Assembly (NCBI GenBank): GCA_007694885.1
Contig: REEW01000050.1
Location: forward strand, 62,001-126,000
Length of the DNA: 64,000 bases
Direction: 5' to 3'
From: Wenzhouxiangella sp.
GTDB lineage: Bacteria > Pseudomonadota > Gammaproteobacteria > Xanthomonadales > Wenzhouxiangellaceae
The notes under the pieces were generated by a model that was not told the DNA's origin, did no database searches, and saw only the letters and a list, made by a program, of their open reading frames with translations. Position 1 is the stretch's first letter. The number at the start of each line of letters is the position of its first letter. Both the position numbers and the translations under genes were made by a program. Shown one piece after another: positions 3,031-43,856 of the stretch.

Positions 3031-3525
3031 ATGGTCATGAATCTGTTCGAATATTCCTTTGCCGCACTCGGCGGCGGCGCGCTCTCGATGGAGCGCTTTC
3101 GCAATCAACCAATCCTGCTGGTCAATACCGCATCCGAATGCGGTTTCACCCCCCAGTACAAACAACTGCAGGCAATGTACAACGACTACAGACAGTCAGG
3201 CCTGGTCGTGGTCGGCATCCCCTGCAATGACTTCGGCGAGCAAGAGCCGGGTGATGACGAAGAGATCGCCCGTTTCACTCGCGAGGAGTACCGGGTCACG
3301 TTTCCCATGACGAGCAAGTATTCCGTCATTGGTCCGGAATCGCACCCGCTGTTCAAGACCATGGCCGAGGAGTTCGGCGGCGACGTCCTGCCGCGCTGGA
3401 ATTTCCACAAATACCTGTTCAACCGCAAGGGCCAACTGGTCGATCACTGGCCGTCCAAGGTGCCCCCCGACGACCCGGCCGTGATTCACCAGGTAACGCG
3501 CAACCTGCAATCCTGGTCGCTGTAA
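3031..3525 (+). CDS. glutathione peroxidase family protein
   Basis: LVNTASECGFTPQYKQLQ, PCNDFGEQEPG, WNFHKYLFNRKGQLV. Confidence 0.95.
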   Translation: MVMNLFEYSFAALGGGALSMERFRNQPILLVNTASECGFTPQYKQLQAMYNDYRQSGLVVVGIPCNDFGEQEPGDDEEIARFTREEYRVTFPMTSKYSVIGPESHPLFKTMAEEFGGDVLPRWNFHKYLFNRKGQLVDHWPSKVPPDDPAVIHQVTRNLQSWSL

Positions 3526-3543
3526 AAATCGGAACAGCGCTCT

Positions 3544-4953
3544 TCAGCTCCGCCCCCGCTGGGTGAATTTCTTCAGGCGACGGCGTTTCTGGATCTGGCG
3601 CGGGGTCAAGGGATTGCGCCGGCCGGCATAGGGATTGTCGGATTCGCGGAAAACCAGCCTGACCGACACTCCGGTCAGGTCGAAGGCGCGCCGCAAGCTG
3701 TTGACCAGGTAGCGTTGATACTGCTCACTGACCTGTTTGGTGCGGCTGCCGTGGATCACGATGCGGGTGGGAAAAACGCCTCCGGCGTGGGCATAGCGCA
3801 GTTTCGGCGTCGCCTGCTTGCCCCCGGGTGGGGCATGGGCCTCGACAGCTGACCGCAAGGCCCGGGTCAGTTTGGGTGTCGACAACTCCGTCGTCGCGCA
3901 ACGGTGGACATGGGTCACCGCATCGATCAGTTCGCCAAGCCCGCTGCCGTGCAGCGCCGAAATCGTGACCACCGGCGCAAACAAGGCAAAATAGAGCCGG
4001 TCCGAGGCGGACTGGAGCAACGAGTGGCGCTGCTTCTCGGACAATCCATCCCACTTGTTGAGGGCCAGAACCAGTCCGCGTCCGGCCTCGACCACGTGTC
4101 CGGCCAGGCGCGCATCCTGGTCGGTAATGCCTTCGACAGCATCCATCATCAAGACCACGACCTGGGCCTGTTCCATCGCCTGCAGCGCCTTGATCGTACT
4201 GAACCGCTCTATGCCCTCGTGGCTGCCGCGCCGCCGTCGAATGCCGGCGGTATCGACCAGATGGAAGACTTGACCATCGCGTTCGACTTGAGCATGAACG
4301 GGATCGCGCGTCGTGCCGGGTACCGATGTCGCCAGGGCACGCTCGTAGCCCAGGATACGGTTGAGCAGGGTCGACTTGCCCGCGTTCGGCCGACCGATCA
4401 GGGCCAGGTGGATGCCGTCCTCGACAAACCTCGGGCCGGCATCGTCCGGCTCCGGCAGGGAGTCCACGACGGCCTGGGCGAGTTGATCAAGTCCGCGTCG
4501 GTGACTGGAAGAAATCAGACAAAACGGGGAAATGCCCAACTCGAGGTTTTCGCCGAGCACGGCATCGGGATCGAGGCCGTCGCTTTTGTTGATGGCATGG
4601 ATGAGTGGCTTGCCCAGTGCCCGAAGCCAGCCGGTGATTTCGAGATCGGCCGGAACGATACCGGAGCGGGCATCGGTCAGGAAAATGACCGTATCGGCCT
4701 CGTCAATGGCCATCCGGGTCTGGCGCTCGCGACCGCTCTCGATCTCGTCGCCGGCCGCTTCCAGGCCACCCGTATCGATCAGGATCATGCGCTGCCCGCC
4801 CAGCTCTGCCCGACCGTAAATCCGGTCTCGCGTGACCCCGGGCATGTCCGCTACCAGGGCATCGCGCGTTCGCGTCAGGGCATTGAAAAGCGTTGACTTT
4901 CCGACGTTGGGCCGCCCGACGATGGCCACCACGGGCAAGCCGCCGCCAGTCAT
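3544..4953 (-). CDS. der: ribosome biogenesis GTPase Der
   Basis: Two GTPase domains: IVGRPNVGKSTLFNALTRTRDALV and LIGRPNAGKSTLLNRILGYERA. Confidence 0.98.
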   Translation of the reverse strand: MTGGGLPVVAIVGRPNVGKSTLFNALTRTRDALVADMPGVTRDRIYGRAELGGQRMILIDTGGLEAAGDEIESGRERQTRMAIDEADTVIFLTDARSGIVPADLEITGWLRALGKPLIHAINKSDGLDPDAVLGENLELGISPFCLISSSHRRGLDQLAQAVVDSLPEPDDAGPRFVEDGIHLALIGRPNAGKSTLLNRILGYERALATSVPGTTRDPVHAQVERDGQVFHLVDTAGIRRRRGSHEGIERFSTIKALQAMEQAQVVVLMMDAVEGITDQDARLAGHVVEAGRGLVLALNKWDGLSEKQRHSLLQSASDRLYFALFAPVVTISALHGSGLGELIDAVTHVHRCATTELSTPKLTRALRSAVEAHAPPGGKQATPKLRYAHAGGVFPTRIVIHGSRTKQVSEQYQRYLVNSLRRAFDLTGVSVRLVFRESDNPYAGRRNPLTPRQIQKRRRLKKFTQRGRS

Positions 4954-4954
4954 C

Positions 4955-6121
4955 CTAGGAGTCCAGCCGCCAGGCGGTCAGGCCTCCGTCCACGTCCAGA
5001 ACATACAGCGTATTGCCGACCACCAGCGGCGCATCAGCCGGCGCATTTCGACCGATTCGGCTGCGGGCGGCAAATTCTCCGTTGGCGGTATCGAACCAGT
5101 GCATGTAGCCTTCCTTGTCGACGGTGACCAGGAACTGCCCGAAAAACACCGGCCGCGTGATCTGCCGGCGCGCCAGCCGCTCGTCTCGCCAGACGGTCGA
5201 GCCGTTGCGCCGATCGACCAGCCAGACCGCGTCGTCGCGGTCTGTCGTCGCCAGTTGGGTGCGCTGCAAGCTTACGCCCAGGTGCGAGGAAACGTCCTTG
5301 ACCCAGAGCACTCGGCCGCCATCCAGGGTCAGGCTGGCCATCTGTCCGCGATAGGTGACAAGATAGAGTTCCGAGCCCACGATTACCATGGGACCGTCGA
5401 TGTCCGACAGGCGGTCGAGCTCGGTACGTCCCTCGGGTACGCTGACCCTTTGCTCCCAGACAATGCTGCCGTCGCTGGCGCGCAAGGCGCTGACCATGCC
5501 GTCGTCGTAGCCGATGAACACCTGGCCGGCTCGCCCCAGCGGATCACTGGTACCGCGCAGGGTCAACAGCGGCACGCTGCGATCGTGAACCCAGATTCGC
5601 GCCCCGGTCTGGCGGTCCAGGCCGAACACTCTGCCGTCGATGCAGCGCACGACGATGACGTCGTCCTGGATCACCGGCAGGGCGAGGACTTCCGAGGACA
5701 GCTGGGCGCGCCAGACAATGTCGCCGCTGTCGCGCTGCATCACGACCAGTTCGCCGTCGAAGGTACCGAAATAGGCATGCTCGGCATCGAGGGTAGGACC
5801 GGCCGACAAGGGCAAACCGGTATCGTGGCGACGCAGTTCGCGCCCGGAGTCGGCGTCGACAACGCTGACCCTGCCCCGATAATCCGCAACCCAGATTTCC
5901 TGGCGGTCGTAGACTGGTGTCAACCGCGGCTTGCTGTTGCCCAGGCCGCGGCCGGTATTTGCAGACCAGAGGCGTTCGGGCTGGGCGGTCGCATCGAACT
6001 CGACCAGGGGGGCCGGCCCGTCCTCGACATCGCCGCGCCCGAACCAGCCACCGACGGTCTGGCAGCCGGCAAGCGTCAGGGAGAGACCAAGGACGACGAT
6101 TATTCGGGAGTTGAGTGTCAC
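4955..6121 (-). CDS. bamB: outer membrane protein assembly factor BamB (PQQ-like beta-propeller lipoprotein)
   Basis: Lipobox LSLTLAGCQTV, repeated PQQ-type blades, position next to der. Confidence 0.95.
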   Translation of the reverse strand: MTLNSRIIVVLGLSLTLAGCQTVGGWFGRGDVEDGPAPLVEFDATAQPERLWSANTGRGLGNSKPRLTPVYDRQEIWVADYRGRVSVVDADSGRELRRHDTGLPLSAGPTLDAEHAYFGTFDGELVVMQRDSGDIVWRAQLSSEVLALPVIQDDVIVVRCIDGRVFGLDRQTGARIWVHDRSVPLLTLRGTSDPLGRAGQVFIGYDDGMVSALRASDGSIVWEQRVSVPEGRTELDRLSDIDGPMVIVGSELYLVTYRGQMASLTLDGGRVLWVKDVSSHLGVSLQRTQLATTDRDDAVWLVDRRNGSTVWRDERLARRQITRPVFFGQFLVTVDKEGYMHWFDTANGEFAARSRIGRNAPADAPLVVGNTLYVLDVDGGLTAWRLDS

Positions 6122-6771
6122 GAGCGCTCCTCTCCGCCCGGACCGGTCGCATCGATTTTCATTTGCAGCAGGCGCTCAGTCGGGCCGCTGCCTTCGGCAA
6201 GCTCGAGTGCTTCCTGGAAAGCCAGACGAGCCGCGTCCGTATCGCCCAGGTTGATGAGCAAATCCCCGCGCAGTTCGGCCCAGGCCTGGCCAAAGCCCGG
6301 CGGCGCGGAATGATCCTCGATCAGGGCGAGCGCTTCGCGCACGTCGCCCTGGGCTTCCAGAACCCGGGCCAGGCGCAGCCTGGTCACCGGCCAAAGCGTT
6401 GACAGGCGACGATCATCGAGCACATCCCGGTACAGCCTGGCGGCCGGTTCCAGCCGACCCTCGTCGACGTAGGCCGAAGCCAGCGCCAGACCGGCAAGCC
6501 CGACGTAGGCACTGCGCGGGACCTGCTCGCGCATCAGCTCCAGCTGCTCCGCGGCCAGTTCGGTGCGCCCGGCCTCGACTTCGTTCTGGACCACGTTGAA
6601 AAAATCGGCGGCCAGCAGGCTTTGCGCCGTCTGGTGGTCCTGCCAGTAGCGAAAGCCGAAAATCCCGCCGAAGGCAAGAATCAGGCCGGCGGCAATGGCA
6701 GTGCCGTATTCGCGAATCCACTTGCGGACGCGCTCGCCTTGTTCGTGTTCGTCGTACAGCTCAACAGCCAT
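6118..6771 (-). CDS. YfgM-like TPR inner-membrane protein
   Basis: MAVELYDEHEQGERVRKWIREYGTAIAAGLILAFGGIFGFRYWQ; between hisS and bamB. Confidence 0.9.
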   Translation of the reverse strand: MAVELYDEHEQGERVRKWIREYGTAIAAGLILAFGGIFGFRYWQDHQTAQSLLAADFFNVVQNEVEAGRTELAAEQLELMREQVPRSAYVGLAGLALASAYVDEGRLEPAARLYRDVLDDRRLSTLWPVTRLRLARVLEAQGDVREALALIEDHSAPPGFGQAWAELRGDLLINLGDTDAARLAFQEALELAEGSGPTERLLQMKIDATGPGGEERS

Positions 6772-6820
6772 GAGTTCTTTTCCCGGAGATCATGAAAGGA
6801 TTTCAACCCGCAATGGTAAA

Positions 6821-8098
6821 TCAGACCGAGGCCAGATCGGGCACCAGGCGTGCAAGCCGACCCGGGAGCTCCGCGACGACGACGCTTTCCTGCGCTCGTT
6901 CGCCGCGCAGGTCCTTGATCTGGCACAGTCCAGCGGCAACTTCGTCCGGCCCCAGGATCAGGGCCAGTTCGGCCCCGCTGCGATCGGCACGCTTGAACTG
7001 CGCCTTGAAGCTGCCACCGGCGAGTGAACACTCTAACCTGAGTGCGGGCAAGGCGTCGCGCAGGTTTTCGGCCAGCTTCAGCGCCAACTCAGGTTCGGTC
7101 TGGTAAACCAGGTAGACATGCGGATCGCGTCGACGTTCCATACCGCTGGCGCGGACAAGCTCGACCAGCCGCTCTACACCCAGCGCAAAGCCAATACCGG
7201 GCGTCGGCTTTCCGCCCTGGATTTCAACCAGCCCGTCGTAGCGTCCGCCGGCGCATACCGTCCCCTGGGCGCCCAGGTCTTCGGTGATCCACTCGAACAC
7301 GGTTCGGGAGTAGTAGTCCAGGCCGCGCACCAGGCCGGGATTGATCCGATACTTGATGCCCAGATGATCGAGCATGTCGCAAACCGCCTGGAAGTGCGCT
7401 CTGGCCGGTTCGGCCAGAACATCGTTGAGGCGCGGTGCGTCGGCCATGATCTTGCGAGTCTCCGGATGCTTGCTGTCGAAGATTCGCAGCGGGTTGCTGC
7501 GCAGGCGGCGCTGACTGTCCGCGTCGAGCCGGTCCGCATGGGGCTCGAGATAGTCGATCAACTGCGCGCGGTAGCGCTGGCGGTCGTCGGGGTCTCCAAG
7601 CGTGTTGATTTCCAGCCGGATACCCTGCCCCAGCCCGAGCACTCGCCATATACGCTCGCCCAACGCGATCATTTCCACATCTGCCTGGGGTTCGGCCAGC
7701 CCGAAGACCTCGGCCCCGAACTGGTGGAACTGGCGCTGACGGCCGCGCTGGGGGCGTTCATGGCGAAACATCGGCCCGCGATACCAGACCTTGAGTCCCG
7801 GCGCCTGCAATAGCCCGTGCTGAATGGCTGCGCGCACGACGCCCGCCGTTCCCTCCGGTCGCAGGCTCAGCAGGTCGCCGTTGCGGTCTTCGAAGGCGTA
7901 CATCTCCTTTTCGACCACATCGGTGGCCTGCCCGATGGCGCGGGTGAAGACCTCGGCCTTCTCGACAATGGGTATGCGGATTTCGGCAAACCCGTAGGCA
8001 TCGAAAATACTGGCCAACTGTTCATCCAGCCAACGCCAGATCGGTGTGTCCACGGGCAGGACGTCGTGCATCCCGCGAACGGACTGGATATTGTTCAT
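6821..8098 (-). CDS. hisS: histidine--tRNA ligase
   Basis: SVRGMHDVLPVDTPIWRWLD, CAGGRYDGLVEIQGGKPTPGIGFALGVERLVEL. Confidence 0.98.
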   Translation of the reverse strand: MNNIQSVRGMHDVLPVDTPIWRWLDEQLASIFDAYGFAEIRIPIVEKAEVFTRAIGQATDVVEKEMYAFEDRNGDLLSLRPEGTAGVVRAAIQHGLLQAPGLKVWYRGPMFRHERPQRGRQRQFHQFGAEVFGLAEPQADVEMIALGERIWRVLGLGQGIRLEINTLGDPDDRQRYRAQLIDYLEPHADRLDADSQRRLRSNPLRIFDSKHPETRKIMADAPRLNDVLAEPARAHFQAVCDMLDHLGIKYRINPGLVRGLDYYSRTVFEWITEDLGAQGTVCAGGRYDGLVEIQGGKPTPGIGFALGVERLVELVRASGMERRRDPHVYLVYQTEPELALKLAENLRDALPALRLECSLAGGSFKAQFKRADRSGAELALILGPDEVAAGLCQIKDLRGERAQESVVVAELPGRLARLVPDLASV

Positions 8099-8206
8099 GC
8101 TGTGCTCGTCGTTTTAGAATTCGTGATCGGACGATGCGCGCTCGCGGGCACGCACCGACGCACGGTGTGCGGGAGACTGGTCGCGCGCAGCGGGATCGCT
8201 AGTGGC

Positions 8207-9175
8207 TCACCGACGTTGAACTGCGCCGTCGGCCAGAAGTTCAAAACTGGAGACATCTCCACGATCCTGCCCTTCGTACTCGACCGCCTTGCCGTCCAGA
8301 CTAAGAGTGATCGCGTTGGCCCGGCCCAGCAACAGGCGAAAGGGAGCCTCGGCGATGTATACCCGCCGCTCGCCGGCGCGCAACAGATCATATTCGAGAC
8401 GCTGACCGTCGGCGTCATACACTTCCAGCCAGCTGTCGTCAACCAATTCGATTACCAGACTTGAGCGGGGATCCGGCGCGGCCGAAGCGGCAGTCTCGTC
8501 TGCCGGCTCCGCATCAGCGCCGACTTGAGCGGTTGGATCGACCAGGTCACGCATCGGTCGGATGCTGCTCAGGGGCAGAGCCGATGCGGTAACGGGAACG
8601 GTCGCGGGCTGGCTGTCACCAGCATCGGCCGGATCGGGCCGAGTCGAGCCCGTCGTCACCGTGGAGCGTGGCCCGGCCCGCTCCGCCAGGACCGAAGCGC
8701 CGCGCTCTGTGCCGCTATCGCGATCCATCAGATGCCAGCCACCCTGGATATAAATCCAAACAATGGGCGGGATAATTACTGTAGTTACAATTGCATATGT
8801 GGCAATTTTTAGAAAACGGTCCAACTTTACTGCCCGGCGTTGCGCCGGCAATACGGGACGCAACGGCGGCGCCTCATCCTCTTCAATCAGGCGCAATAAA
8901 GGCGCCGGGTCCAGACCCAGAAAGCGCGCATAATTGCGGACGTAACCGCGTCGGTAGAGATGCGGATGACGGTCCAGCGTGCCCTTTTCCAGGTCGTCGA
9001 GAATCACGGAGGAGAGCTTCAGTGCCGCGGCCGCCCGCTCGATCGAAATCCTCCGTTTCAATCTCTGCTCGCGCAGGGTCAGGCCCACTTGTTCTTCAGC
9101 GCGTCCGACACTCAGCGTCAGCTGGCTGGGCCGCTGGTCGGCCACTTCCGCGCCCGGTGCTGGTTTAGTGATCAT
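8207..9175 (-). CDS. rodZ: RodZ-like HTH/DUF4115 cytoskeletal protein
   Basis: N-terminal HTH LREQRLKRRISIERAAAALKLSSVILDDLEKG...RGYVRNYARFLGLD, TM helix, C-terminal SWLEVYDADGQRLEYDLLRAGE. Confidence 0.85.
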   Translation of the reverse strand: MITKPAPGAEVADQRPSQLTLSVGRAEEQVGLTLREQRLKRRISIERAAAALKLSSVILDDLEKGTLDRHPHLYRRGYVRNYARFLGLDPAPLLRLIEEDEAPPLRPVLPAQRRAVKLDRFLKIATYAIVTTVIIPPIVWIYIQGGWHLMDRDSGTERGASVLAERAGPRSTVTTGSTRPDPADAGDSQPATVPVTASALPLSSIRPMRDLVDPTAQVGADAEPADETAASAAPDPRSSLVIELVDDSWLEVYDADGQRLEYDLLRAGERRVYIAEAPFRLLLGRANAITLSLDGKAVEYEGQDRGDVSSFELLADGAVQRR

Positions 9176-9953
9176 CTCGGCGGAGACTCCGTAGCTCTCT
9201 TGCCTGAGTGGAATTGGGGAATTGTGATTCCAGGCGATTTGCATACCGCTCTGCTTGTTCAAGATTGCCGGTGCGGGTTTCAACCCGGTATCCCAGCATC
9301 AAAGTGACTTCGTCTGCCTCGGCCACGCTCTCAAAGCGCTGCAGAAAGGCCCGGGCCCGAAACGGATCATCGAGTTCCAGATACAGTTCGGAGAGCTGAA
9401 AAAGCCCGTCGGAATAGTCCGGATTGAGCTCGATCGCTTCGCGCAGCAGTTCTTCGGCCTGGTCCAGGCGGCCGTTGCGCCGGGCACAGGTGCCCGCATT
9501 GGTGTAGGCAACCTCGGGAGTATCGTAAAACGGGTCGGCGAAGGCTCGCTCGAAATGCGCTTGCGCCGTATCGAAGTCGCCCTGCCGGCACAGGAAGACT
9601 GCGTAGGCATTCTGGGTTGCACCCTCGTTCGGGGCCAGCCGCGAGGCTTGCCGATAATGTCGTTCTGCCGAGCGCATATTGCCCAGCCGCTCGTGGATCA
9701 AGGCCAGGGCCAAATGCGCGGGCGTATGCTGAGGATCATGACGAAGAGCGGTTTCGAGCTTTTCCATGGCAATCTGCATTTGCCCCCGCTCCAGGTAACC
9801 CAGACCCAGCCGGGTGTTGACCTCGGCTGCACGAACCGGGCTGATCCGGTCGACTCCCGCACGCGCGTGGGTGGCTTCTTCCGGCGTGGTCGCACAGCCG
9901 GTCAGAAAGGCACCGGCCAGGAGCAAGGCAAACCCGGAAAGCCGCAGTCTCAT
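9165..9953 (-). CDS. pilW: type IV pilus biogenesis/stability protein PilW/PilF (TPR lipoprotein)
   Basis: Lipobox LTGCATTPEE, TPR repeats (AEVNTRLGLGYLERGQMQIAMEKLETALRHDPQH), next to rlmN. Confidence 0.92.
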   Translation of the reverse strand: MRLRLSGFALLLAGAFLTGCATTPEEATHARAGVDRISPVRAAEVNTRLGLGYLERGQMQIAMEKLETALRHDPQHTPAHLALALIHERLGNMRSAERHYRQASRLAPNEGATQNAYAVFLCRQGDFDTAQAHFERAFADPFYDTPEVAYTNAGTCARRNGRLDQAEELLREAIELNPDYSDGLFQLSELYLELDDPFRARAFLQRFESVAEADEVTLMLGYRVETRTGNLEQAERYANRLESQFPNSTQARELRSLRRDDH

Positions 9954-40670: not shown

Positions 40671-43040
40671 TCAGTGGCCGACCGGACCCAGCCAGCGGTC
40701 CGCCCACTCCAGATAGGCCCGGATCACTTCGGAGTAGTTCGGTGGCAAGTGGCCCCACTCCAGCACCAGGTGCTCCTTGTGCTCGGGTGGGGTGGCGAGC
40801 AGCTCGAAAAAAGGCCGCTGCGAGGTATCGACCGGAAAATTGTAGTCCTGCGAGCCGTTGATCATCAGCAGGGGCAGCCGCACTCGCGGCAGGTAGTTCT
40901 GCGGCTGGATTTCCGGCGGCGCCTGGGTCCACAGGCCCAAGCCGCCCGACATGATGATAGCGGCACGAAAACGCTGATCCAATGCCAGCGGAAACGGGGC
41001 CCGGTTCGCGCCGTAACTCACGCCGTGGTAGAGCAGTCGGTCCACGTCAAGATCCGATCGTGTCTCCAGGTAATCGATGGTGCGCCGCAAGTCCTTGACC
41101 TGATTGACCAGCAATTGCCGATGCCCCATCGGTCCGGAAATGGCAGGCAGCTTGCGCTCGAAAGTACCCTGGTAGACTGGATAGACCACGGCCCGGCCGC
41201 TGCGCAGGAATGGCTCGACATGATGCAGCCCGGCATCCCGGCTGGAGTCGAGCAGCAGCGCATCACCTCCAGGAAAGTGGACCACCGTCTGATAGGGGGG
41301 CACGGCTGAGCGGGGAATGAGCACCTGCACGATGATCCGATCATTGGCATAGGGTGCGGCAAAGCTGATTCGCTCGCGCCGCCAGTCCCTGTGCGAGTCG
41401 TCGATCTCCTCGACCCGGACATCCAGCGCCACGGGATCGTAGTCGAACAGGCGAGCAAACAGGGCGAAAGTATCATCATCGACCGGCGCCGGCAGGCTCC
41501 GGTCAGGCGCGACAACCTCGGCAAGCAAGTCCTCGGCCAGGACCGCGTCCTGCAACATCAGACGAAAACCGAAGCCGGGACCCCGTTCCAGGGGACTGCG
41601 GGCCTCTACGTCAACGAAGCGATAGCCGCTTTCCTGGTAAAAGCCACCGAGGAAATGGCGTAGTCCTCCGTCGGCAGTCAGGCACCACTCGCCCACGTTG
41701 CCGCTCATGTCGTAGGTGCCGTGACTGCCGAGGCTTTCCATGGAGCCGACCGGAACCGATCCGTTACGATTGAAGTTGCTGAGCAACAAGACATCGGAAA
41801 AGTTCTGATGCTGGGGTATGCCGAGACCGGCCGCGCGGCGCCAGTGGAACACCGTAGGCAACTGGCGGCCGACAAAGTCCGCATAAGCCGCAGCTTCGAA
41901 CCAGCTGACCCCCTCGACCGGATGCTCGCCCTGGCCCGGCGGGTATGTACCCATGTGCCAGGTTGAAGGGCCCGGCAGGCCGGTCTTGTCGACGAACAGG
42001 GCCATGGTCTGTTCCGGTGACATGCCGCTTTCGGTCTCGAGCAGGTGGCGCCAGAATTCCAGCCTTCGGTAACCTCCGGCCTCGACGAACTCGCGAAACT
42101 GATCATTGGTGACCTCGAACCGATCAATCCAGAAACCGGGCAGCTCGCGCGTTTGCTGGAGGTAGGTAACAGGCCCCGGCGGCACAAAAACCATCCTGCT
42201 CGGCGTTTCATCTTCCGCCTGCAGAACGAACGTGGCTGCCAGCGGAAGAATCGCGGGCGCGGCCTCGATGGCCGAATACCCATCCAGCGTGACCCGGAAC
42301 CGCATCTGGGCCAGCGGCAGCCGGACCTCCTCCAGCGGCGTCGTTCCCAGCACGATCCACTCCGCGTTGCCTTCGCGGAGGCCGCGTACCGCCACTTCAG
42401 CACCCGGTGGATCGCTGATGATCCGGTTCGGAAGAGTGATATCCAGCCACATCTGTTCCAGGCGGGCATCCCTTGGGGCGCGTTCTCGCACCTCACGCAA
42501 AAGCCGCCAGGCCCGGGCAAGATCCTCCTCCATCAGTTCCCGGATCTCCGGGATGGCCTGCTCGGTCAGCCACCTTTGCACCGAGACCTGCTTCCACCAG
42601 AGCCCGCTGACTATCGCCAGAACCACCAGCAGCCCCAGGGTGCCGCTGAGCAGGAACCGATTGACCGGTTCGGCCGAAGAATCGGCCATTTTCGTGGCCA
42701 CGTCGTCTCTGTCATCCCGGAGTAGTGGCTCCAGTCGCTCGACCGGGCAGATGATGCGGTAGCCTCGCCGATGGAGAGTTTCGATGTAGCGTGGCGACTG
42801 GGCCTGGTCGCCCAGTGCCTGGCGCAGTTCGCTGATCGCTTGCGGCAGAACATTGGGCGACAGTGCCGTTCGTCCCCAGGCGGCATCCAGCAGCGAGTTG
42901 TGGTCCTGCATCTCCGGCGCGCGCTCCAGCAAAACCTCGAGCAGGCGACAAGTCTGCTTGCGCAAGGTCCTGTCACCGGCCGGGCCGCGCAGGATGCCCA
43001 GCCGTGGGTCTAGCTCGAAGTCACCGAATCGATAACGCAT
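40671..43040 (-). CDS. multidomain membrane protein: OmpR/CadC-type winged helix, TM helix, PEGA-like region, FGE/SUMF-like domain, alpha/beta hydrolase
   Basis: FGDFELDPRLGILRG...LPQAISELRQALGD...YIETLHRRGYRIICPV (wHTH); FLLSGTLGLLVVLAIVSGLWW (TM); SDPPGAEVAVRG (PEGA-like); GFWIDRFEVTNDQFREFVEAGGY...HPVEGVSWFEAAAYADFVGRQLPT...YDMSGNVGEWCL (SUMF); LLYHGVSYGANRAPFPLALD (GxSxG). Confidence 0.85.
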   Translation of the reverse strand: MRYRFGDFELDPRLGILRGPAGDRTLRKQTCRLLEVLLERAPEMQDHNSLLDAAWGRTALSPNVLPQAISELRQALGDQAQSPRYIETLHRRGYRIICPVERLEPLLRDDRDDVATKMADSSAEPVNRFLLSGTLGLLVVLAIVSGLWWKQVSVQRWLTEQAIPEIRELMEEDLARAWRLLREVRERAPRDARLEQMWLDITLPNRIISDPPGAEVAVRGLREGNAEWIVLGTTPLEEVRLPLAQMRFRVTLDGYSAIEAAPAILPLAATFVLQAEDETPSRMVFVPPGPVTYLQQTRELPGFWIDRFEVTNDQFREFVEAGGYRRLEFWRHLLETESGMSPEQTMALFVDKTGLPGPSTWHMGTYPPGQGEHPVEGVSWFEAAAYADFVGRQLPTVFHWRRAAGLGIPQHQNFSDVLLLSNFNRNGSVPVGSMESLGSHGTYDMSGNVGEWCLTADGGLRHFLGGFYQESGYRFVDVEARSPLERGPGFGFRLMLQDAVLAEDLLAEVVAPDRSLPAPVDDDTFALFARLFDYDPVALDVRVEEIDDSHRDWRRERISFAAPYANDRIIVQVLIPRSAVPPYQTVVHFPGGDALLLDSSRDAGLHHVEPFLRSGRAVVYPVYQGTFERKLPAISGPMGHRQLLVNQVKDLRRTIDYLETRSDLDVDRLLYHGVSYGANRAPFPLALDQRFRAAIIMSGGLGLWTQAPPEIQPQNYLPRVRLPLLMINGSQDYNFPVDTSQRPFFELLATPPEHKEHLVLEWGHLPPNYSEVIRAYLEWADRWLGPVGH

Positions 43041-43229
43041 CCCGTCTGTATACGCCAACTTTGCTCTTTCAGGCAATGCCTGTGATGCACCGCAAGTTTT
43101 CATGCAGGAGGAAACCTTGAGGATCTTTTGAGGGATTTTGCAAGTCTTTGCAGGCCCGTATCCGCAATCTGGGGTTCGAGCAGCACTGCAATCGCTGCAT
43201 CATCCCCAACCTTCCTGCGAGGAACCGAC

Positions 43230-43856
43230 ATGAACCAAATGACATCCACACTGCGGCTGTGCACCCTGAGCGCAGCCGTGATGGCAGCCTTCGCCCTGGG
43301 CGTCGACGATGCCCAGGCCCACCGTGACCACGGCGGCCCTCTCCACCAGGACCAGTCTTGCGAAACCTGGCTGGACGGGCGGCCGGAACGCAACGTCCCG
43401 CCGCGCTGCCGCGCCCTGGCCAGCCAGCTCAACCAGGTGCGCCGTGCGACCAGCGCTTTTTTCAGCTTCGACGTAGCGGTTGCGGCCGGCTGGGATGCAT
43501 TCATCAGCCCGTGCGTGGAAAGCCCGATGGGCGGGATGGGATACCACCTGGCCAACATCGAGCAACTGGGCAATGGCATCGTGTCGCTGCTGCGACCGGA
43601 GGTCCTGCTGTATGCGCCGACCGAAGACGGCTCGATGGAGTTTCTCGGCGTGGAGTACATCGTCCCGGCCCCGCTGTGGGCGTCCAGTGAGCCGCCGGAA
43701 ATCATGGGTCAGTCCTTTCACTTCAACCCGGGGCAGAACATCTGGGCCCTGCATGTCTGGATCGGCAAGCCCAACCCTGCGGGTGTTTTTGCAGACTGGA
43801 ACCCCGAGGTCAGCTGCGAGTTCGCACCTCCTCCGGCCCCGCCGAGCGCTGACTGA
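43230..43856 (+). CDS. secreted protein of unknown function
   Basis: Signal peptide-like N-terminus ending AQA, then HRDHGG; conserved-looking GMGYHLANIEQL...LRPEVLLYAPTEDGSMEFLGVEYIVP...ALHVWIGKPNPAGVFADWNPEVSC; divergent from the wHTH fusion. Confidence 0.75.
   Translation: MNQMTSTLRLCTLSAAVMAAFALGVDDAQAHRDHGGPLHQDQSCETWLDGRPERNVPPRCRALASQLNQVRRATSAFFSFDVAVAAGWDAFISPCVESPMGGMGYHLANIEQLGNGIVSLLRPEVLLYAPTEDGSMEFLGVEYIVPAPLWASSEPPEIMGQSFHFNPGQNIWALHVWIGKPNPAGVFADWNPEVSCEFAPPPAPPSAD

Follow-up and report, generated by a model that had tools for sequence, protein, structure and literature searches.

Which gene does a membrane-bound DNA-binding protein control when its sensor half resembles a lectin joined to an esterase, and what kind of signal could such a sensor read? 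The question is raised by a gene at positions 40671-43040 (minus strand) of a 64,000-nucleotide stretch of a Wenzhouxiangella sp. genome (contig REEW01000050.1, positions 62,001 to 126,000), referred to here as the window. The gene encodes a 789-residue protein, the regulator, and lies divergent from a gene for a small secreted protein. From sequence comparison and structure models, we consider it probable that the regulator is a ToxR/CadC-type membrane one-component activator of the secreted-protein gene, gated by a periplasmic lectin-esterase cassette.

In the mechanism that we propose, a single helix would anchor the regulator in the inner membrane, and its cytoplasmic winged helix would bind an operator of four 11-bp repeats, the last of which would fill the -35 slot of the secreted-gene promoter. 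The bound regulator would then activate the neighbouring gene. The periplasmic part, comprising a PEGA segment, a lectin-fold domain of the formylglycine-generating enzyme (FGE) type, and an esterase-like hydrolase, would serve as the input; this cassette is a portable module, found in other bacteria joined to Ser/Thr kinases or to a TIR domain. What is new is that a predicted target for the regulator, a predicted 44-bp operator, and a testable input module lie in one short DNA stretch, for a sensor family that was previously unannotated.

Domain architecture of the regulator

40671..43040, minus strand: whole regulator gene, 789 aa plus stop
42729..43034, minus strand: OmpR/CadC-type winged-helix DNA-binding domain (residues 3-104; Pfam core 26-96)
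42600..42656, minus strand: single transmembrane helix (residues 129-147; transmembrane prediction and model)
42201..42434, minus strand: PEGA-like beta segment (residues 203-280; secondary structure of the model, and Pfam PEGA in the homologue L038)
41556..42194, minus strand: FGE/SUMF-type domain with C-type-lectin fold (residues 283-495)
40674..41495, minus strand: alpha/beta hydrolase domain (residues 516-789)

The 789-codon frame is free of internal stops. A second in-frame start lies further upstream (ATG at 43103, giving 810 aa), and the start at 43040 was preferred because of the orthologue alignment. A mis-assembled fusion is ruled out by full-length orthologues (~53-75% identity) in many genomes. 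Pfam places Trans_reg_C at residues 26-96 (2.8e-13) and FGE-sulfatase at residues 289-456 (1.1e-25), both above cut-off, along with a marginal Peptidase_S9 match, just above cut-off, at residues 639-699 (6.7e-5). Pfam gave no Pkinase match in the regulator, though this domain is present in relatives, and detected PEGA in L038 but not in the regulator itself. For the winged helix, the best PDB sequence match is CadC (5ju7, 1.5e-9), and ToxR (listed in PDB as the cholera toxin transcriptional activator) is also among the best matches. The AlphaFold model (pLDDT 79.6, pTM 0.58, built on an 18-sequence alignment) runs from the winged helix through a long helix that includes the transmembrane stretch (129-172) to a segment rich in beta structure (residues 203-260), the FGE region, and the hydrolase; the hydrolase is well predicted, and parts of the FGE region are of low confidence. 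An earlier note, made from the sequence alone, had read in this single frame a winged helix, a transmembrane helix, a PEGA-like segment, a SUMF domain and a hydrolase. Pfam, transmembrane prediction and AlphaFold confirm that reading, and the domain search recovered both the winged helix and the hydrolase (as Trans_reg_C and Peptidase_S9).

A single transmembrane helix between the DNA-binding and sensor parts was found in 12/12 winged-helix orthologues checked, with a second, weak peak in the divergent paralogue G007b. The C-terminal half is predicted to be periplasmic and the winged helix cytoplasmic, a topology that follows only from the one transmembrane helix and the DNA-binding N terminus.

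The predicted target gene

43230..43856, plus strand: predicted target gene, divergent from the regulator, encoding a 208-aa secreted protein with a fold without match

Genomic comparison strongly supports the neighbouring secreted-protein gene as the regulator's predicted target. Among 250 genomes of the order searched for the regulator, 17 carry both genes, three the regulator only, and four the secreted gene only (17/20 versus 4/230), and the secreted gene is absent from all five genomes with only TIR or anchor-only cassettes. The two genes adjoin in 12 genomes, with the secreted gene divergent or downstream. Eight genomes (G016, G028, G034, G035, G043, G053, G735, and G792) keep the pair in a changed context: the stretch read showed neither gyrA nor mtnA as a neighbour, and the pair is divergent in three and tandem in five. 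In three close genomes (G001, G012, and G017) adjacency is little informative, because the whole gyrA-towards-lysS neighbourhood is conserved there.

The secreted protein belongs to a family without Pfam or NCBIfam match, and although its mature part is modelled with confidence, no PDB fold matched it at E 0.001; conserved motifs of the family are GGMGYH and LHVW...NPxGxF...NPxVxC. Plasmids of rhizobia, Gemmatirosa, and haloarchaea carry distant homologues, which are hypothetical or unannotated proteins. Five regulator genomes have the secreted gene at another locus, in several of them beside M48-peptidase and LemA genes. The unlinked gene adjoins an M48 peptidase at L187, L188, L190, L191, and L193 (LemA too in some), and at L181-L183 an M48-type gene adjoins a winged-helix/TPR regulator instead.

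The predicted operator and promoter

43106..43149, plus strand: predicted operator, four 11-bp direct repeats, AGGAGGAAACC TTGAGGATCTT TTGAGGGATTT TGCAAGTCTTT
43165..43170, plus strand: -10-like hexamer CAATCT, 15 bp past repeat 4

The earlier idea of a sensor that regulates transcription holds up at the level of sequence, with a predicted target and with a predicted operator inside 43041-43229, the region flagged at that stage for an electrophoretic mobility shift assay. When four close genomes were aligned, a block around CTTGAGGATCTTTTGAGGG proved conserved. Seven genomes were used to seed a position matrix, which located 19 sites upstream of the secreted gene, 12 of them from non-seed genomes. 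These four-repeat sites align gap-free, with an invariant A at columns 4, 15, 26, and 37, and every one outscores all 100 shuffled versions of the region it lies in. When the close relatives of each genome are withheld from the matrix, the operator ranks first in 19/19 loci, and that of the window scores 46.3 versus 7.9 elsewhere in the 64 kb. Searching the genome of the window with the operator profile returned a single site (E 1.1e-8), with no second match up to E 10; with the genome 88% complete and a loose first search pass, a missed site is possible. In G005, G007, G010, G024, and G030 the secreted gene, though not next to the regulator, also has the operator upstream; the operator is absent upstream of a second secreted-protein homologue in G053 and of those in G795 and G823. 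Across the order sample, the profile matched in 19/20 regulator genomes and 11/230 others, and 17 of those 19 were training genomes.

A.A...T hexamer, which played no part in finding the repeats, follows repeat 4 by 15 bp (+/-1) in 19/19 genomes, whereas other offsets gave 0-3. The AAGTCT of repeat 4 is 17 bp from this -10-like hexamer and so occupies the -35 slot, a placement that points to activation more than to repression. No consensus sigma-70 promoter or terminator was found when the intergenic region was scanned for them.

The FGE-type domain and the hydrolase

41016..41018, minus strand: Ser675, predicted nucleophile (HGVSYGA)
40845..40847, minus strand: Asp732, predicted catalytic acid
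40749..40751, minus strand: His764, predicted catalytic base

The two halves of the sensor differ in what they retain of an active site. In the FGE region, the cysteine pair of catalytic formylglycine-generating enzymes is absent, as the earlier note had read from the lone cysteine in GEWCL: Cys453 is the sole cysteine there and, being kept in 14/18 orthologues, is not invariant. An active FGE is ruled out by the missing pair, and an EgtB/OvoA sulfoxide synthase by the lack of a DinB match; the EgtB match itself spans residues 298-455 only and scores far under its cut-off. In the hydrolase, the Ser/Asp/His triad is made up of the residues named earlier, and each of them is conserved without exception (18/18 orthologues; 30/30 cassette proteins of several phyla), while much of the sequence around them varies across the 30. 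The model places Ser675 after strand 664-674, Asp732 after 724-729, and His764 after 755-760, and this strand order, together with a nucleophile elbow, is the usual alpha/beta-hydrolase arrangement. The domain is apparently an intact esterase, as judged from conservation and the model.

By Foldseek, its nearest solved folds are CE7 acetyl xylan esterases, followed by CE15 esterases. TM-scores to the CE7 structures (PDB 1ods and others) are ~0.61-0.70 by target length at 14-19% identity. The CE7 nucleophile motif is GxSQG, and the hydrolase was not classed as CE7 despite the fold match because its own motif is GVSYG. From its likeness to carbohydrate esterases we would guess at an ester substrate, the match indicating an esterase-like fold rather than a substrate.

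Exchange of output domains

The same sensor half occurs behind other output domains. Homology among cassette proteins extends across the entire C-terminal 640 residues (~34-40% identity), and a transmembrane helix lies immediately N-terminal of the cassette in winged-helix, kinase, and TIR proteins. A Ser/Thr kinase replaces the winged helix in, for example, L039-L042, L044-L046, and L050-L052, and only the N-terminal output domain differs between the two versions. In L135 (genome G721; ORF 376-2961), an 862-aa protein combines a TIR_2 domain with weak PADLOC matches to ThsB-type TIR, one transmembrane helix, and the FGE-hydrolase cassette, and in L136-L139 N-terminal membrane helices precede the cassette with no recognised output domain. 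The acidobacterial (Acidobacterium) protein L038 (ORF 3303-6566, 1088 aa) carries a winged helix and then a kinase, PEGA, FGE, and hydrolase, and possibly links the winged-helix and kinase output types. Our tree unites the 12 main winged-helix orthologues with 100/100 support and nests the TIR protein among kinase fusions; L038 and G007b (a 39% paralogue) fall outside the main winged-helix group, and deeper branching is weak.

As kinase-PEGA-FGE-hydrolase proteins occur in several phyla, we regard the whole as a sensor cassette whose output domain has been exchanged. The earlier note had supposed that a hydrolase was added when the kinase was replaced, and this does not stand, as those kinase proteins share the 640-residue C-terminal half; a hydrolase gained only in the regulator's lineage is ruled out on the same grounds. 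The taxonomic survey that the note proposed found the winged-helix version in 20/250 genomes of the order and the cassette solely in other architectures in 5/250. Whole-genome protein searches at E 1e-20, covering 369 genomes from the class and 299 from the phylum, gave no further regulator copies. A two-peptide-pattern scan of one genome per species in 84,980 species, the result of which is a lower bound, placed the cassette, mostly in metagenome-assembled genomes, in at least eight groups: Acidobacteriota, Aminicenantes, Gemmatimonadota, Calditrichota, Bacteroidota, Myxococcota, Verrucomicrobiota, and Planctomycetota. Viral contigs held no regulator match. Neither did plasmids, which rules out plasmid-borne spread. 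A known phage-defence protein is likewise ruled out, the regulator having no PADLOC match and only the TIR part of L135 matching among its relatives.

Alternative readings

Several observations weigh against the regulator as the reader of this operator. The recognition helix is almost identical in winged-helix/TPR paralogues, which could use the same operator in some genomes. Two incomplete genomes, G015 (~90% complete) and G008 (~80%), hold target and operator with no regulator detected, and G795 and G823 carry the secreted-protein family without regulator or operator. Moreover, the co-occurrence statistic (Fisher p ~7e-20) ignores shared ancestry, and the training sites were chosen by score upstream of the target, so scores there are inflated. 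It is nonetheless decidedly unlikely, in our judgement, that the main reader of the operator is a different winged-helix regulator, for instance a TPR paralogue, with our protein controlling something else. That account draws on the shared recognition helix, on G015 and G008, and on G030, which holds both regulators and gives eight matches to a longer profile, several of them weak; against it stand the 12 adjacent regulator-target pairs and six genomes (G010, G012, G017, G024, G043, and G053) in which target and operator are present and no other winged helix matched that of the regulator as closely as the TPR paralogues do elsewhere. In addition, seven genomes of the same genus without regulator and target (G003, G006, G018, G019, G023, G026, and G027) have no profile match below E=0.01.

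The role of the hydrolase can be read in several ways. We hypothesize, tentatively and as a somewhat unlikely case, that sensing is catalytic: the lectin-fold domain would capture an ester-bearing molecule, the fused esterase would process it, and the bound or acyl-enzyme state would signal over one membrane helix, with the output (transcription, phosphorylation, or TIR) set by the fused domain. The hydrolase may act on the sensed ligand, as the earlier note proposed. A pseudoenzyme that binds ligand in a preserved but non-catalytic pocket is fairly unlikely: the adjoining FGE domain has lost its catalytic cysteines and Pfam scores for hydrolase families are weak, but the triad is fixed in all 30 cassette proteins amid variable surroundings, and the model shows a canonical elbow and strand order. 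Quite unlikely, too, is that the hydrolase carries the protein's main function, with the winged helix serving only to match hydrolase activity to the amount of secreted protein provided as a periplasmic partner or substrate. This would fit a cassette conserved over phyla regardless of output domain, the anchor-only proteins L136-L139, and a partner that is secreted and genetically linked; it sits poorly with the five genomes that have TIR or anchor-only cassettes without the secreted protein, and with the good conservation of both winged helix and operator.

Relation to known systems

Like ToxR/CadC-like regulators (PMC5430869, PMC10269533), the regulator has an N-terminal OmpR-type winged helix, one transmembrane helix, and a sensor predicted to be periplasmic, and tandem repeats at its predicted target promoter are as expected for a PhoB-like DNA-binding domain. 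What sets it apart is its sensor, a PEGA-FGE-hydrolase cassette whose triad is intact; the words hydrolase, peptidase, sulfatase, and enzyme were searched for in the main text of PMC10269533 and do not occur there. Ser/Thr kinases with an FGE/SUMF1 domain are known from planctomycetes (PMC11032199) and among cyanobacterial kinases of diversity-generating retroelements (DGRs; PMC7517822), and TIR or kinase proteins with lectin-fold domains are known in DGR systems (PMC11032199, PMC7517822, PMC10907252). The regulator's hydrolase likewise occurs in kinase fusions of several phyla, and with a winged helix in place of the kinase its predicted output is transcription. With the variable proteins Mtd and TvpA (PMC5006420) it shares the FGE subclass of the C-type-lectin fold, used for ligand binding rather than catalysis, but here that fold is fused to a hydrolase and a DNA-binding output. 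Unlike CE7 acetyl xylan esterases and cephalosporin C deacetylases, the hydrolase sits in a membrane sensor. Prolyl oligopeptidases fused to transcription-regulator domains (PMC4522959) also unite an alpha/beta hydrolase and a DNA-binding domain in one protein; FGE and PEGA were not found in the text of that paper.

No paper found by our literature search, which covered few subscription papers, names the winged-helix-FGE-hydrolase combination, and neither a hydrolase within the cassette nor the winged-helix output was found in the literature searched, unlike kinase-FGE fusions. We describe the protein as a putative variant of the membrane one-component regulator built on a portable lectin-esterase cassette, with a predicted operator and target that are well-supported. 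Since the cassette is fused to a winged helix, a kinase, or a TIR domain, knowing the ligand of the one-component form would also inform the kinase and TIR forms found in other phyla, and would put to the test the idea that a membrane regulator can use catalysis for sensing.

Further sites and loci

Two regulator genomes outside training, G013 and G022, hold operator sites with the same spacing to a -10-like hexamer; the target gene was not found in them. In each of the two, one site lies upstream of a homologous small membrane protein with an HAHLL(L)VG motif, as does a second site in G024, and this protein is possibly a second target. At L224, L225, and L219 a predicted operator precedes small membrane proteins that have an HAHLLLVG motif and no confident Pfam family. 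A full operator with the -10 spacing lies at about 3001-3042 of L228, from a genome without the regulator (G040), and likely belongs to another winged-helix protein; together with sites in family f9, it suggests related repeats used by other winged-helix proteins. At L158 (G007), the ~39% regulator paralogue (5977-8424) is divergent from two tandem genes for small secreted proteins (8546-9905), with a sigma-factor-like gene and a kinase gene nearby.
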